A stretch of 64,000 nucleotides of DNA, taken from assembly GCF_900107375.1 (NCBI RefSeq), contig NZ_FNPT01000001.1:806001-870000 (forward strand), given 5' to 3'. The stretch is from Lysobacter sp. yr284 (lineage in GTDB: Bacteria > Pseudomonadota > Gammaproteobacteria > Xanthomonadales > Xanthomonadaceae). Each line of letters starts with the position of its first letter. Within the stretch, counting starts at the first letter, position 1. This document shows, piece after piece, positions 12,808 to 18,547 of this stretch. Position numbers and translations under genes: made by a program. The notes below the pieces were generated by a model, which worked only from the letters and a program-made list of their open reading frames with translations, was not told the DNA's origin and ran no database searches.

Positions 12808-13518
12808 ATGAGCAACCAGATGCACGACCACATCGTCAAGAGCTACGACGACGAGCAGCGCCGCCTGCTCGACGAAACCCTGCGCATGGGCGAGATCGCC
12901 GCGGCGCAACTGGAATCCGCGCTCGACGTGGTCCAGCGCCGCGACGACAAGGCGGCCGAGCGCATCATCGCCAACGACGAGGCGATCGACGCGCTGGAGC
13001 AGGAAATCAGCCACGACGTGATGAAGCTGGCGCTGCGCGGACCGATGGCGCGCGACCTGCGCGAGATCCTCGCCGCGATCCGCATCGCCTCCGACATCGA
13101 GCGCGTCGGCGACTACGCCGCCAACGTCGCCAAGCGTTCGACCGCGCTGAACCTGTCGCCGCCGCTGCCGCACGTGGCCGGCCTGCACGCGCTGGGCACC
13201 CTGGCGGTCAAGCAGTTGCGCGACGTGCTGGTGGCCTACCGCGACAACGACGTCGAGCTGGCGCAGCGGGTGCGCGACCGCGACGCCGAGGTCGACACCG
13301 CCTACACCGGCCTGTTCCGCGAGCTGCTGACCTACATGATGGAAGACGCGCGCAGCATCACCGCCTGCACCCATCTGCTGTTCATGGCCAAGAACATCGA
13401 GCGCGTCGGCGACCACGCCACCAACATCGCCGAGAACGTGTGGTTCCTGGTCAAGGGCGACGAGCCGCTGCCGCCGCGCGACAAGCGCGACGTCACCAGC
13501 ACCACCGGCGCGGTCTGA
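12808..13518 (+). CDS. phoU: Phosphate signalling protein PhoU
   Basis: 236 residues, all helical, made of two similar three-helix PhoU repeats. Metal-binding E/DxxxD-type motifs appear in each half: RIASDIERVGDYAANVAKR and FMAKNIERVGDHATNIAEN. PhoU links Pst transporter state to the PhoR kinase, repressing the Pho regulon when phosphate is sufficient. It follows pstB after a 133-bp repeat-filled gap and is probably the last gene of the operon. The start MSNQMHDHIVKSYD fits the family; an upstream in-frame extension would translate the repeat and was rejected. The PhoB/PhoR genes are not in this window. Confidence 0.93.
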   Translation: MSNQMHDHIVKSYDDEQRRLLDETLRMGEIAAAQLESALDVVQRRDDKAAERIIANDEAIDALEQEISHDVMKLALRGPMARDLREILAAIRIASDIERVGDYAANVAKRSTALNLSPPLPHVAGLHALGTLAVKQLRDVLVAYRDNDVELAQRVRDRDAEVDTAYTGLFRELLTYMMEDARSITACTHLLFMAKNIERVGDHATNIAENVWFLVKGDEPLPPRDKRDVTSTTGAV

Positions 13519-13881
13519 CCCGCCGACGCCGGCCGGCGCAAGCTTCCGCCACCGGCAAGCTTGCCGGCCCGCCGCGCACTGCGCGGCGCGCCGGCGCGTT
13601 TTCGCGGTTCCGATCCGCGCAGCCTGAACGCCGCCGCCCGCTGCACCGCAGCATACGGCGCAGGCCGCCCGGCGCGGCGCCGCGGCCAGCCGCGCGCGCA
13701 AACGTCGCAACCGCGCGGATGCAACCGTTTTCAACGTCCGCGCGCTGAATGCTTTCTTAACCCAGGCGCGCCGCCGCGCCGCGGCCGCGAACCCTTCGTC
13801 CCCGCCCCCGCCTCTTGATGGATGCCCGCAGCCCCCGGCTTTGGGTGTATTTTCCACAAGCTTAAGGAGGACACCGGGGAC
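13519..13881 (+). promoter_or_regulatory. Gap before the ECF sigma gene with a candidate promoter motif
   Basis: A 363-bp non-coding stretch. The hairpin GCCGCGC-ACT-GCGCGGC near 13572-13588 could end the phoU transcript. GCAACCGTT at 13721-13729 recurs at 14513-14521 before the bufferin-like precursor gene, so it may be part of a promoter used by the sigma factor itself. No -10 element can be assigned with confidence. Confidence 0.3.
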
Positions 13882-14397
13882 ATGACGTCGTTACTGGCCA
13901 ATGGCGATCTGGCCGCCGCCCGCGCGGGCGACACGGCCGCGCTGGAACGGGTGCTGCGGCACTCGCGCCAGGACCTGCGCCGCTACGCCGAATTCCACTG
14001 CGTCATCAACGACGTCGAGGATGCGGTGCAGGAGAGCCTGATCGCGGTGTCGCGCAAGCTGCGCGACCTGCGCGTGCTCGAATGCTTCGTCTCCTGGACC
14101 TTCCGCATCGTCAAGCGCGAGTGCAACCGGCTCAAGCGCATGCGCCGCATGTTCAGCGGCCAGGCGATCACCGAGGAGATCGCGCCGGTGGTCACGCCCG
14201 AGCCGGCCGAATGGCGCCACGACGTCGCCGCCGCGCTGGAATCGCTGCCGGCCCATTACCGCCGGATCATCCTGCTGCGCGACCTGGAAGGCCTGACCGT
14301 GGCCGAGATCGGCGCGGAACTGGGGCTGAGCCGCGAAGCGGTGAAGTCGCGCCTGCACCGGGCGCGGGTGCTGGCGCGCGAGTACCTGTCGCCGTGA
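13882..14397 (+). CDS. ECF-type RNA polymerase sigma factor of the bufferin-like locus
   Basis: 171 residues. Region 2 (about 15-85) contains DVEDAVQESLIAVSRKL and VSWTFRIVKRECNRLKR, the latter with the tryptophan of region 2.4. Region 4 (about 115-170) has LPAHYRRIILLRDLEGLTVAEIGAELGLSREAVKSRLHRAR, a typical helix-turn-helix. AAGGAGG at 13864-13870 marks the start at 13882; an in-frame ATG upstream adds 20 unlikely residues. No anti-sigma gene is adjacent, unlike most ECF pairs. It stands 218 bp before the EG(S/K)CG peptide and MNIO genes on the same strand. Known bufferin operons are likewise driven by ECF sigma factors that respond to copper (SigF in Caulobacter), so control of this locus is the likely role, by inference. 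Confidence 0.88.
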   Translation: MTSLLANGDLAAARAGDTAALERVLRHSRQDLRRYAEFHCVINDVEDAVQESLIAVSRKLRDLRVLECFVSWTFRIVKRECNRLKRMRRMFSGQAITEEIAPVVTPEPAEWRHDVAAALESLPAHYRRIILLRDLEGLTVAEIGAELGLSREAVKSRLHRARVLAREYLSP

Positions 14398-14512
14398 CTG
14401 CATCCGCGCCGCGCCGTCCGCCGTATCCCTGTATCGAAGCCGGCCCGCCACCGCGGCCGGCCCCGGATCCCGTACCGGCCAGGCCGTTACGGATGTCACC
14501 GCGCACCACCCC

Positions 14513-14521
14513 GCAACCGTT
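14513..14521 (+). promoter_or_regulatory. Shared GCAACCGTT motif before the precursor gene
   Basis: Identical 9-mer to 13721-13729 upstream of the sigma gene. TGTCACC at 14494-14500 is followed 16 bp later by CCGTTC, another ECF-like arrangement. It lies about 100 bp before the precursor ATG. Candidate only. Confidence 0.3.
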
Positions 14522-14615
14522 CTAAGCTCCGCACCAGCACCATCCAACCGGGTCCCCCGGGGCCCAGCGCAAGACCACGGCGGAGCAATCGCCCGTCGCC
14601 ACCTGGAGAGAACGC

Positions 14616-15056
14616 ATGTCCAAGAAAATCAACAAGCCCGTCGCCCTCGCTCTCGGCGCCACCCTGCTCGGCGGCCTGAGCCTGTCGGCTTCCGCGTTCG
14701 CGATGAGCGACCTGTCGCAGGGCTACATGCTCGGCGCGCAGCAGGCCCAGACCGCCGAGAAGGCCGCCGACGCCAAGGCCACCGACGCCAAGAAGGCCGA
14801 GGGCAGCTGCGGCGCGAAGAAGGCCGAAGGCAGCTGTGGCGCCGACAAGAAGAAGGCCGAAGGCAGCTGCGGCGCCGACAAGAAGAAGGCCGAGGGCAGC
14901 TGCGGCGGCGACAAGAAGAAGGCCGAAGGCAGCTGCGGCGGCGACAAGAAGAAGGCCGAAGGCAAGTGCGGCGGCGACAAGAGCAAGACCGACGCCAAGG
15001 CCAAGAAGGCCGGCGAAGGCAAGTGTGGCGAAGGCAAGTGCGGCGGTTCGATCTGA
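14616..15056 (+). CDS. Bufferin/HvfA-type RiPP precursor with eight EG(S/K)CG motifs
   Basis: 146 residues. The signal peptide covers about 1-29 ([18 protein letters not shown] ... SASAFA), followed by [11 protein letters not shown], a segment typical of HvfA/BufA1-type precursors. The rest is low complexity: Lys/Ala/Asp-rich spacers carry Cys65, 74, 85, 96, 107, 118, 137 and 142, each inside EGSCG or EGKCG. Spacing is 11 residues for Cys74-118. In characterised relatives (bufferins of Caulobacter, HvfA of Haemophilus) a DUF692/MNIO enzyme converts cysteines in such motifs to copper-binding heterocycles and the peptide acts in the periplasm. The MNIO and DUF2063 genes follow at once, so the same fate is inferred here. 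AGAGAA supplies a ribosome-binding site. The product is unrelated to ordinary metallothioneins. Confidence 0.87.
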
Positions 15057-15063
15057 TCGCGGC

Positions 15064-15954
15064 ATGACGATGGACGGCACGCATCCGTTGACTCCGGATG
15101 CCGTCGGCCTCGGCCTGCGGCGGGCCCTGTTGGGCCCGCTGCAGTCCGCGCCGCACGCGCCCGGCGCCGCGCGCGACTTCGATTTCCTCGAACTCGCCCC
15201 GGAGAACTGGATCGGCGTCGGCGGCCGCTACGGCGAGCAGCTGCGCGAGCTGTCCTCGCACTACCCGTTGGTGTGCCACGGCCTGTCGCTGTCGCTCGGC
15301 GGCACCGCCGCGCTGGACGAGACCTTCCTCGCCCGCGTGCGCCGCTTCCTCGACGAACACGGCGTGGCCTGCTACAGCGAACACCTGAGCTACTGCAGCG
15401 ACGACGGCCATCTGTACGACCTGCTGCCGATTCCGTTCACCGAGGAAGCCGTGCGCCACGTCGCCGCGCGCATCCGCCGCACCCAGGACATCGTCGGCCG
15501 CCGCATCGCGGTGGAGAACGCCTCCTACTACGCCGCGCCGCACCAGGAAATGAGCGAGATCGAGTTCACCCGCGCGGTCCTGGCCGAAGCCGATTGCGAC
15601 CTGCTGCTGGACGTCAACAACGTCTACGTCAACTCGATCAACCACCGCTACGACGCGCGCGCGTTCATCGCCGCGATGCCGCACGAGCGCATCGCCTATA
15701 TCCACGTCGCCGGCCATTACGACGAGGCCGACGACCTCAAGGTCGACACCCACGGCGCGCCGGTCAAGCACGAGGTCTGGGACCTGCTCGGCGACGCCTA
15801 CCGCCTGTTCGGGCCGCGCCCGACCCTGCTGGAGCGCGACTTCAATTTCCCGCCCTACGCCGAACTGGTCGACGAACTGGGCACCGTGCGGCGGATCCTG
15901 CGCGAGTCGGCCGCGCCGGCCGCGCGCGAACCGGCCCGGCGCGCCCGCGCCTGA
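15064..15954 (+). CDS. DUF692 multinuclear iron oxidase (MNIO), RiPP-modifying enzyme
   Basis: 296 residues, TIM-barrel DUF692 family. Conserved metal-ligand stretches are seen in order: [64 protein letters not shown] and [13 protein letters not shown], with the expected His, Asp, Asn and Glu. Family members use two or three iron ions and oxygen to rearrange cysteine residues of precursor peptides. The ATG is 7 bp after the precursor stop codon, so the two are co-translated. The gene after it encodes the usual DUF2063 partner. The most likely substrate is the EG(S/K)CG peptide just upstream. The C-terminal tail ([14 protein letters not shown]) is non-conserved. Confidence 0.92.
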
Positions 15955-15958
15955 GCCC

Positions 15959-16726
15959 ATGAACGACGCCCCTTCGCGCCTGCGCGCGCAGCAGTTCGAA
16001 CTGACCCGGCACCTGCGCGACCCCGCCGCGAGCCCGGCGCCGGCCGGGATCGAGGACCGCCGCCTGGCGGTCTATCGCGAGCTGCTGTTCAACAACATCG
16101 CGAGCCTGCTGTCGGGCAACTTCCCGGCGATCGAACGCATCCTCGGCGAGCAACGCTGGGAAAAGCTGGTGCGCGATTTCTATCGCGACCACCGCTGCCA
16201 CACGCCGCTGTTCGCCGAGATCGCGCGCGAGTTCCAGCGCTATCTGCAAGACCTCGACGAACGCGAGCCGGACGGCCTGGACCCGCCGTTCCTGCAGGAA
16301 CTGGCGCATTACGAATGGGTCGAGCTGGCGCTGCAGCTGAGCGAGGCGCAGGCGCCGCACGACGACGCCGGCCACGACCCGGCCGACCTGCTGGACCGCG
16401 CGCCGCGGCTGTCGCCGCTGGCCTGGCCGCTGGCCTATGCCTGGCCGGTGCACCGGCTCGGCCCCGACTACCAGCCGGCGCAGCCGCCGCCGGCGCCGAC
16501 CTTGCTGCTGCTGCGGCGCGAGGCCGACGGCGAGGTGCGCTTCTCCGAACTCAGCCCGCTCGCGTTCCGGCTGTTGCAGCGCCTGGAAGAATCGCCGCAG
16601 CTGAGCGCGCGCGAGCAGTTGCGCGCGCTCGCGGCCGAGGCCGGCAGCGACGACGAAGCCGGCTTCCTCGACATGGGCGCCGCGCTGCTGCGGCAGATGC
16701 GCGCCAACGGCGTCGTCTACTTCTGA
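15959..16726 (+). CDS. DUF2063 (HvfC/BufC-like) MNIO partner protein
   Basis: 255 residues. The N-terminal DUF2063 domain (about 8-105) has the characteristic segments QQFELTRHLRD, RLAVYRELLFNNIASLLSGNFPAIERILGEQRWEKLVRDFYRDHRC and TPLFAEIAREFQRYL. The C-terminal half (AWPLAYAWPVHRLGPDYQP ... LLLLRREADGEVRF) is a small mixed domain seen in HvfC proteins and thought to bind the precursor. In studied systems this protein forms a complex with the MNIO enzyme and is required for modification. It begins 4 bp after the MNIO stop codon and ends the operon. No DoxX-like or extra transporter gene, sometimes found in such clusters, follows. Confidence 0.88.
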   Translation: MNDAPSRLRAQQFELTRHLRDPAASPAPAGIEDRRLAVYRELLFNNIASLLSGNFPAIERILGEQRWEKLVRDFYRDHRCHTPLFAEIAREFQRYLQDLDEREPDGLDPPFLQELAHYEWVELALQLSEAQAPHDDAGHDPADLLDRAPRLSPLAWPLAYAWPVHRLGPDYQPAQPPPAPTLLLLRREADGEVRFSELSPLAFRLLQRLEESPQLSAREQLRALAAEAGSDDEAGFLDMGAALLRQMRANGVVYF

Positions 16727-16737
16727 CCCGAAGCTCC

Positions 16738-16836
16738 CTGTAGCAGCGGCGCGAGCCGCGACCGCGACAACGCAACTGCGGCGCAAGCCTCGGCGCGATT
16801 GCGTCGTCGCGGTCGCGGCTCGCGCCGCTCCTGCAA
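16738..16836. repeat. Paired inverted copies of repeat family A
   Basis: GCGGCGCGAGCCGCGACCGCG and its reverse complement are about 97 bp apart end to end. This is the first of five such pairs in the window (also 21.5, 31.5, 37.1 and 45.2 kb). It fills the gap between the DUF2063 gene and rnt and can fold into a long hairpin. Confidence 0.75.
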
Positions 16837-16890
16837 GGGGGGCGCCGCCGCCCGGCGACCGCTCAGCGTCGATTTGCTAGGCTTCCCGCC

Positions 16891-17547
16891 ATGATCGACC
16901 CCGGCCCCGCCTCCAGCGCCGCTCCTGCCGCGCCTGTCCCCGCCACCCTCGCCACCCGCTTCCGCGGCTACCTGCCGGTGGTCGTGGACGTGGAAACCGG
17001 CGGATTCGACTGGAACAAGCACGCCCTGCTGGAAATCGCGGTGCAGCCGATCGAGCTGGATGCCGACGGCCGGCTGGTGCCCGGCGAGGTCGCCAGCGCG
17101 CACGTGGTGCCGGCCGCCGGCACCCTGATCGACCCCAAGTCGCTGGAAGTCACCGGCATCGACATCGACCATCCCTTCCGCGACGCCAAGCCCGAGCGGC
17201 AGGCGCTGGAAGCGGTGTTCGCGCCGGTGCGCGAGGCGGTCAAGCGCCACGGCTGCCAGCGCGCGATCCTGGTCGGCCACAACGCCCACTTCGACCTCAA
17301 CTTCCTCAACGCCGCGGTCGCGCGCAGCGGCCACAAGCGCAACCCGTTCCACCCCTTCAGCGTGTTCGACACCGTGACCCTGGCCGGCGTGGCCTACGGC
17401 CAGACCGTGCTGGCGCGCGCGGTGCAGGCGGCCGGCTTCGTCTGGAACGGCGAGGAAGCGCATTCGGCGGTGTACGACACCGAGCGTACCGCCGAACTGT
17501 TCTGCAAGATCGTCAACGCCTGGCCGGCGCGCGGCGCCGGCGGCTGA
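16891..17547 (+). CDS. rnt: Ribonuclease T (DEDDh exonuclease)
   Basis: 218 residues. Exo I is [13 protein letters not shown], Exo II is [13 protein letters not shown] and Exo III is [14 protein letters not shown], giving all four acidic residues and the general-base His of the DEDDh family. Length and the segment [12 protein letters not shown] match RNase T, which trims 3' ends of tRNA and other stable RNAs and works as a dimer. The first 25 residues (Ala/Pro-rich) are outside the conserved fold. It is followed 19 bp later by an unknown gene on the same strand. Confidence 0.92.
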
Positions 17548-17566: not shown

Positions 17567-18547
17567 ATGGACGAGCCCTTTGCGCCGCCCTACCTGTGGA
17601 TCCCCGGTCTCGGCGCCGATCCGGATGCGCTGCGGCGGCTGCGCGAACGCGCGCCCCGGCCGCGCGAGCCGATGGGCGAAGCCTGGTTCATGGGCGGCGA
17701 CCGCCACTACTATCGCGGGCTGATGGCCGGCGCTGCGGCCGACTGGGAGCTGGGCGAACTCGAAAACGCGTTGACCGAACTGACCAGCGGCCCGACCTCG
17801 TTCGATCACCTCGACGAATGGAGCTTGTGGTTCGACTACCTGCTGCCGCGCGCGCAGGAACGCGCCGACGAGACCCGGCATCTGCACGAGTTGTTGGTCA
17901 GCGCGGTATGCGTGCATTGCCTGGACCCGGCCCTGCCCGGCCGCCCCGCGGAGTTCCGCCGCGACCTGCTCGATACCCTGGGCCGCGCGCTGATGGCGCC
18001 GCAGCGCTGGCGCGACGGCCGCATCGTCGCCGACCGCGTGCTCGATCCGCTGCGCAGCTACGTCTGCGGCTGGACCCTGGAAAGCGGCGCCGCGTTCTCG
18101 GCGATCTGCAGTCTGGCGCTGCGCTACCTGGAAACGGACGCGGTCGACGCCTGGATCGGCTCGTTGCTGGCGATCGACGATCCGCTGTGGCGCGCGGTCT
18201 TCGTCGTCTGGCTCGACGGCGCCGAGCCGTTGCTGTTCGAAGGCCAGCAGCCCGAACAGGCAGAGCACGACCCGATGAAGAACATCGCCTGGGATTGGTG
18301 CTGGGTGCTGCGCGGCGCCGTGCCGTCGCCGCAACTCGATCCCGAGGCGCGCGTGCACGCCTTCTTCCCGCCCGGCAACGTCGCCGCGCTGGCCGCGGCG
18401 CTGCGGCGGCGGCTCGGCCTGGACGCGCTGTCGCAGTGGAGCGCCGCGCTGCGCGTCGCCTGCGGGGAAACGCGCGATCCGGGCACCGCGCTGTGGCAGT
18501 TCGAGACCTCCGCGCTGCGTGTGGCCGAACGCTTCGGCCTGGATTGA
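17567..18547 (+). CDS. Conserved-looking hypothetical protein, 326 residues
   Basis: I do not recognise a family. The protein is acidic, rich in Trp, Leu, Asp and Ala, with no signal peptide or membrane helix. It reads as a mainly helical cytoplasmic protein (LDEWSLWFDYLLPRAQERADETRHL, LWRAVFVVWLDGAEPLLFEGQQPEQ, IAWDWCWVLRGAV). Codon use is normal for the neighbourhood and no other frame is as regular. The gene sits 19 bp after rnt, so it may share that transcript. It could be a DUF family seen in xanthomonads, perhaps a toxin-immunity type protein judging by composition, but nothing firm supports that. Confidence 0.65.
   Translation: MDEPFAPPYLWIPGLGADPDALRRLRERAPRPREPMGEAWFMGGDRHYYRGLMAGAAADWELGELENALTELTSGPTSFDHLDEWSLWFDYLLPRAQERADETRHLHELLVSAVCVHCLDPALPGRPAEFRRDLLDTLGRALMAPQRWRDGRIVADRVLDPLRSYVCGWTLESGAAFSAICSLALRYLETDAVDAWIGSLLAIDDPLWRAVFVVWLDGAEPLLFEGQQPEQAEHDPMKNIAWDWCWVLRGAVPSPQLDPEARVHAFFPPGNVAALAAALRRRLGLDALSQWSAALRVACGETRDPGTALWQFETSALRVAERFGLD

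Follow-up and report, generated by a model that had tools for sequence, protein, structure and literature searches.

What kind of peptide is made by a four-gene locus of Lysobacter sp. yr284 (NCBI RefSeq assembly GCF_900107375.1), and what switches its genes on? The locus lies in a window of 64,000 nucleotides (contig NZ_FNPT01000001.1, positions 806,001 to 870,000), and coordinates are given within this window. An earlier note on this DNA had described it as a bufferin/HvfA-type locus, with a sigma factor, an exported cysteine-rich peptide, a multinuclear nonheme iron-dependent oxidase (MNIO), and a DUF2063 protein. We consider it probable that the locus is a captophorin operon, specifying an HvfA-type metallophore among the ribosomally synthesized and post-translationally modified peptides (RiPPs), under the control of its own extracytoplasmic function (ECF) sigma factor. 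Gene content, families, operon geometry, the motif rule, sigma linkage, the invariant residues, and the upstream element are sequence-level results.

Family assignment of the operon

The four genes lie co-directionally on the plus strand between phoU and a ribonuclease T gene, in the order sigma factor (13882..14397, 171 amino acids), hvfA (precursor peptide, 14616..15056, 146 amino acids), hvfB (MNIO/DUF692 peptide maturase, 15064..15954), and hvfC (DUF2063 partner protein, 15959..16726), with hvfB starting 7 nucleotides past the hvfA stop codon and hvfC 4 nucleotides past hvfB; order, direction, and spacings are as the earlier note had them. The precursor scored 32.8 bits against KCGExKCG_twice, the NCBIfam profile of the EGKCG repeat domain (cut-off 19.5), and the profile searches that the note had proposed for the other two families placed the maturase in HvfB (429.2 bits, cut-off 360) and its partner in HvfC (309.3 bits, cut-off 142). 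The narrow Haemophilus HvfA equivalog (NF050188) gave 34.8 bits on the precursor, under its cut-off of 95. The HvfA half of the note's label was thereby upheld and its bufferin half was not, with BufB reaching 264.9 bits on the MNIO (cut-off 310) and the precursor having no Pfam match up to E 0.1 and hence no DUF2282; the MbnB profile gave 47.3 bits on the MNIO, under its cut-off of 325.

By profile, the cluster very probably belongs to the captophorin (5-thiooxazole, copper-binding) class and not to the bufferins, its expected chemistry being that of published relatives, in which MNIO-DUF2063 pairs convert Cys to 5-thiooxazole, a change of -4 Da, to give copper-binding products (PMC13097082). 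The same source counts captophorins among the most populous RiPP classes and names selectivity residues and a catalytic base for the maturase FonB. HvfB residues R20, D259, and F260 were invariant in 118 distinct aligned homologues, and R19 was Arg in 116 and Lys in 2; these four residues appear to match those of FonB by motif, FonB itself being outside the alignment. Among named HvfB proteins, the closest to that of the window, at 94% identity, comes from Lysobacter enzymogenes ATCC 29487.

HvfC homologues were identified in 113 of 149 genomes of the same family (E up to 0.001; some weak), and HvfB in 88 of 101 genomes drawn from the order and in 143 of 229 drawn from the class. The family survey comprised 80 loci (L033-L112), 1 of them a second locus of this genome, to which the window was added. 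By the extraction rule, 27 of 217 loci gave no precursor (21 Pseudomonas loci plus L035, L127, L130, L159, L161, and L167), and L074 and L126, with masked residues, were excluded from motif counts. The 21 Pseudomonas loci (within L219-L254) have close HvfB homologues and no EGxCG precursor found by this rule within 1.5 kb upstream.

A sigma factor gene between phoU and hvfA

The first gene product scored 71.6 bits against TIGR02937 (sigma70-ECF, cut-off 42.9), which places it among ECF sigma factors, and 61.7 bits against sigma region 4 (PF08281, cut-off 25.7); region 2 (PF04542) gave 22.2 bits, just below its cut-off of 24. Homologues were present in 40 of the 149 family genomes (E up to 1e-40), and 35 of 41 matches lay within about 2.5 kb of a same-strand HvfC match (a hand count; HvfC is weak in G121). 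The other six are those of G116, G007, G120, and G068 (HvfC on a different contig), the second copy of G121, and the match in G095, for which the same-family HvfC search listed none.

The sigma gene adjoins hvfA in 28 of 80 family-survey precursors, window included, with a gap of 52-233 nucleotides (about 220 in the window). The order phoU-(sigma)-hvfA recurred in 35 distinct loci with the sigma gene, where phoU and hvfA are 709-1304 nucleotides apart, and in 54 without it, where the gap runs from -62 to 953 nucleotides and is at most 385 in 48. There is thus a single slot, phoU-[sigma]-hvfABC, which either holds the sigma gene or lacks it. In a 55-row HvfB tree (the window plus 54, out of 81, being those extracted by the motif filter), the sigma label needs 11 changes, at least 7 of them forced by well-supported branches, so the gene was gained or lost several times. 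In L092 and L119 (G029), the phoU-hvfA gap is about 950 nucleotides with no recognizable sigma gene, and a search of it for a sigma remnant gave no significant match.

As the note had observed, no anti-sigma gene lies beside the sigma gene, which is flanked by phoU and the peptide gene, with ribonuclease T past hvfC. Open reading frames (ORFs) with an HxxxCxxC motif occurred in the stretch examined at only 8 of 66 sigma loci, mostly on an odd strand or in an odd frame. The 66 include the same strain twice in places, and a recount by distinct sequence gave 52. In all 52 distinct homologues, H39, C40, C81, and H125 of the sigma factor are invariant; H159 is kept in 51, and position 68 is variable, with Cys in 24. 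In a 48-row alignment the same four residues were invariant, among about 41 invariant columns. C40 and C81 fall in the sigma-2 part, and none of the five PDB alignments listed (three SigE chains of one kind, CnrH, and Escherichia coli sigma-E) has a Cys at either position. The CorE-type C-terminal Cys-rich domain is absent from the window protein, which ends ...AREYLSP at residue 171 with no Cys past C81; a few of its relatives carry tails. The AlphaFold model (mean predicted local distance difference test 69.1, predicted template modeling score 0.40) was too poor to judge the proximity of C40 and C81. If the factor does work without an anti-sigma, the conserved Cys within its own chain would make it an uncommon kind of stress sensor.

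An upstream element shared with a DUF417 gene

Comparison of loci revealed a bipartite promoter-like element, GCGAACC-N18-CTCTT (13787..13816, plus strand), 65 nucleotides 5' of the sigma start codon. This ATG, at 13882, is preceded by AAGGAGGA, and an alternative, longer in-frame start lies at 13822. In a dyad screen of 48 nonredundant loci, GAATC-N18-CTCT occurred in 14, and no dyad exceeded 5 in 20 shuffles. Extended to GCGAAYC-N18-CTCTT, the element was found 5' of sigma with at most 2 mismatches of 12 in 43 of 52 distinct loci (22 with none). The controls gave 1 of 52 when the sequence was reversed and 1 of 112 for the region 5' of hvfA where sigma is missing; among 28 regex matches in the 52 loci, the spacing was 18 in 27. 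A scan of 13500-16950 for sigma-70 promoters and terminators returned 0 and 0 sites. The one good match 5' of an hvfA that has no sigma gene, with one mismatch, is at L100, the second hvf locus of G116; it may mark an additional target or have arisen by chance.

This genome holds two copies of the exact element (reversed control, 0). Ten sigma-bearing genomes held 18 exact matches (control, 2), of which, as read from the coordinates, 8 fall at the sigma gene and 2 at DUF417, the remaining 8 lying elsewhere; forty genomes without sigma held 21 (control, 12). A relaxed search, with one mismatch allowed and one more base included, gave 10 matches and 10 reversed ones; only the exact form stands out. 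The second exact copy in this genome is 45 nucleotides 5' of a gene of the DUF417 (RclC) family (L279 1501-2466, contig C42), whose product scored 93.1 bits against PF04224 (cut-off 27) over residues 158-282 of 296, the C-terminal half only. This protein has homologues in 5 of the 33 sigma-bearing genomes searched, in 10 of the 20 from the genus (sigma presence being known for part of these), and in 3 of the 40 that lack sigma. In 6 of those 10 genus genomes, two of them with identical element sequence, the exact element stands 73-78 nucleotides 5' of the DUF417 match, and G129, from another genus, has it with one mismatch; no such element precedes the match in the other 4 genus genomes, in G027, or in the 3 genomes without sigma. 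Descent accounts for some of this conservation and leaves the agreement between two unlinked places unaccounted for. We infer that this is the promoter which the sigma factor itself recognizes.

Paired and isolated sites in the precursor

The precursor begins with a signal peptide (14616..14702, end ...SASAFA, judged by inspection) and has eight Cys, at 65, 74, 85, 96, 107, 118, 137, and 142, in five EGSCG followed by three EGKCG motifs; our recount agrees with the earlier one. Its isolated EGSCG/EGKCG sites are encoded by a 33-bp tandem array (14790..14982, 6.0 copies, 91% matches), and the C-terminal pair, Cys 137 and 142, by 15011..15049. The 11-residue design that the note had seen extends to four of the seven Cys intervals (9, 11, 11, 11, 11, 19, and 5) and not to the other three. 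The near relatives L175 and L176 differ from the window peptide in site number.

We called a Cys paired if another Cys stands exactly five residues away and isolated otherwise; six of the eight in the window peptide are isolated. Across 79 unmasked family precursors, window included, 371 of 380 paired Cys come after Lys and 1 after Ser; of 100 isolated Cys, counting those in motif, 46 come after Ser and 35 after Lys (46 and 35 of 103 when all Cys are counted). EGSCG, which the note had set apart from the Lys-type motifs of HvfA, turned out to be the commonest non-EGKCG motif of the family (39 of 483 Cys) and was also found outside it. The two classes of site that the note had built on this variant hold as a sequence rule, by which paired sites take Lys and isolated sites Ser or Lys, and may or may not differ in chemistry.

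Because related sequences are not independent events, the contrast was also assessed after 70% dedupe and by within-precursor permutation. In 113 deduplicated precursors from all sources, Lys preceded 539 of 585 paired Cys, and isolated Cys had Lys in 63 and Ser in 59 of 149. Among 165 distinct precursors, 73 were informative for residue shuffling; their observed paired Lys (301 of 321) was unreached in 2000 trials (mean 236, largest 249), and 67 of the 73 agreed in direction, with 6 opposite. Outside the family (39 precursors) the contrast was weaker, with Lys in 184 and Ser in 20 of 222 paired and Lys in 26 and Ser in 24 of 64 isolated Cys; the 20 paired Ser Cys come from six loci (L117, L118, L121, L135, L140, and L166), and the rule is not universal. 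EGxCG itself is intact at isolated sites, array included, and a C-terminal pair lies within 20 residues of the C-terminus in 69 of the 79 family precursors.

The FonBC enzyme pair tolerated Ala, Arg, and Thr before Cys, and it modified a two-repeat FonA substrate and not a one-repeat one (PMC13097082). On the strength of this relative, Ser before Cys is probably tolerated by the maturase, and isolated sites may be handled differently from paired ones. The rule offers a natural substrate set for asking whether an MNIO needs two neighboring motifs, for which the window peptide is a good test.

Proposed mechanism and alternatives

In the sequence of events that we propose, a stress signal would switch on the sigma factor, which would transcribe its own operon from GCGAAYC-N18-CTCTT and, in this genome, also the gene of the DUF417/RclC-family membrane protein. 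HvfC would bind the precursor in the cytoplasm and present it to HvfB, an iron MNIO oxidase expected to convert the EGxCG Cys to 5-thiooxazoles (-4 Da each), and the signal peptide would then export the modified peptide, which would bind Cu(I). A reactive oxidant or copper would be the likeliest inducing signal, because the Haemophilus hvf-type operon is induced by hypochlorous acid (HOCl) via the ECF factor RpoE2 (PMC7907618) and the DUF417 protein RclC shields E. coli from hypothiocyanous acid (HOSCN), as its homologue RcrB does from HOCl (PMC12096828). Our best reading is an autoregulated ECF sigma factor, perhaps sensing by its own cysteines, that drives an oxidant- or copper-stress captophorin operon; by analogy with these relatives it would include 5-thiooxazole formation, copper binding, and induction by oxidant or copper, with hvfABC presumably read from the element and no anti-sigma needed. 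A bolder version, which we regard as speculative and rather improbable as a whole, makes the protein a one-component sensor, of otherwise ordinary two-domain ECF build and lacking an anti-sigma, in which H39, C40, C81, and perhaps H125 would form a metal or thiol switch, the regulon of captophorin operon and RclC-family protein would join copper buffering to reactive-oxidant defense, and paired Lys and isolated Ser sites would be processed or used differently. For the question of what turns captophorins on and what they do in the cell, the locus offers a regulator, a candidate promoter of 30 bp, and perhaps a second target gene.

Several points weigh against the autoregulated stress operon. 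No dyad was common to the regions 5' of sigma and of hvfA in more than one locus, which is the level of shuffles, and therefore hvfABC would be read through from the sigma gene or from another promoter. The authors of the Microbulbifer study were reluctant to credit the proteins with protection from copper and did not detect them when copper was added (PMC12538549), and the Haemophilus rpoE2 mutant resisted oxidants in vitro like the wild type (PMC7907618). Given the failure of one-repeat FonA (PMC13097082), the isolated sites may also stay unmodified, in which case the note's upper figure of eight sites would not be reached. A stronger form of this last point, which we hold to be possible and on balance doubtful, is that only the C-terminal pair is modified and that the array of isolated EGSCG sites serves either as a spacer or as a simple thiolate ligand for metal. 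The two-repeat requirement of FonBC, the persistence of the pair in 69 of 79 family precursors, and the retention of Lys at paired sites (371 of 380) beside its relaxation at isolated ones (35 of 100) would fit it, but the array keeps EGxCG intact and FonBC accepted Ala, Arg, and Thr before Cys.

For the regulator, the chances are about even that an ordinary anti-sigma is encoded elsewhere in the genome and that the invariant Cys and His are structural. Our search for anti-sigmas covered the locus surroundings, the Haemophilus and Neisseria relatives use small zinc-binding anti-sigma (ZAS) proteins, and Caulobacter SigF uses NrsF; a purely structural role sits less well with the invariance of two Cys and two His across all 52 distinct homologues while C68 varies, and an ordinary anti-sigma with the want of a linked candidate (HxxxCxxC ORFs at no more than 8 of the 66 loci). 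That the element is the site of another regulator, or an RNA feature, seems to us the less likely account of it. It was found by comparison and not by activity, and the left block can be read, at certain loci, as an inverted repeat (GCGAAYCCTTTCGC), but its two blocks keep one spacing in the manner of -35/-10 pairs (27 of 28 at 18), its copies in this genome lie 45-65 nucleotides 5' of start codons, and at hvfA genes without sigma only 1 of 112 comes within two mismatches. We give very little credence to a bufferin or methanobactin in place of an EGKCG-kind captophorin: BufB and MbnB do match the MNIO (264.9 and 47.3 bits), but both fall below their cut-offs (310 and 325) where HvfB exceeds its own (429.2 over 360), and the precursor is without DUF2282.

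Relation to known systems

The EGKCG captophorins fontiphorin, oxazolin (HvfABC), and gonophorin share with the window locus the HvfA-type repeats, HvfB, HvfC, and a signal peptide. Their sites are EGKCG pairs, whereas those of the window peptide are mostly isolated EGSCG, and the window operon is led by a sigma gene and has no adjoining DoxX gene. ECF control of such operons is already known, Neisseria included (PMC3511200, PMC2893595, PMC2954202, PMC7907618): in the Neisseria rpoE/ecf operon (NGO1943-NGO1948) and with Haemophilus RpoE2, as here, an ECF sigma factor accompanies an MNIO/DUF2063/Cys-peptide operon that it controls or, in the window, would control. Those systems include a DoxX gene as well as a ZAS anti-sigma (MseR, HrsE), neither of which was found at the window locus, and the second element of this genome is at the DUF417 gene, not at msrAB. 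Caulobacter SigF-NrsF, which responds to metal stress, is alike in placing an ECF sigma over MNIO/DUF2063 operons but differs in its membrane anti-sigma NrsF, its promoter GTAACC-N16-CGAA, and its bufferin precursors. CorE of Myxococcus xanthus, which is copper dependent, provides a precedent for a copper-sensing ECF factor without an anti-sigma (PMC3107203, PMC8999054); it resembles the window protein in that no anti-sigma gene was found, in the Cys within the sigma factor, and in the link to copper, but senses by a C-terminal Cys-rich domain and a CxC linker motif, an extension that the window protein does not have. A landscape survey describes sigma and anti-sigma genes in Buf1 clusters, and EGKCG clusters as mostly the core genes together with DoxX (PMC12452194).

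Both the product class and its control by ECF factors are thus known, and the regulator features and the site rule are apparently undescribed. In the main texts of the literature searched, supplements excluded, we found no account of an unpartnered Cys-bearing sigma factor of this kind, of the element and its DUF417 neighbor, or of the paired/isolated rule; the motif "EGSCG" was unmentioned, and Lysobacter combined with MNIO led to one general review.

Neighboring genes and a second captophorin locus

On the 3' side of the ribonuclease T gene, 17567-18547 holds a conserved-looking ORF of 326 amino acids that matched no Pfam or NCBIfam family. This genome has two HvfB genes, the other belonging to a captophorin locus (L052 4950-7881; contig C32, about 450949-453880) with the order hvfX-hvfA-hvfB-hvfC, in which HvfX scored 131.6 bits (cut-off 80) and no match to the window sigma factor was found. 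The window peptide and its nearest Lysobacter relatives are without EF-hand-like motifs. The L052 precursor carries such motifs between two EGKCG pairs, and motifs of this kind (DxDxDG type) lie inside 60 of 79 family-survey HvfA precursors (L033-L112), commonly between EGKCG blocks.

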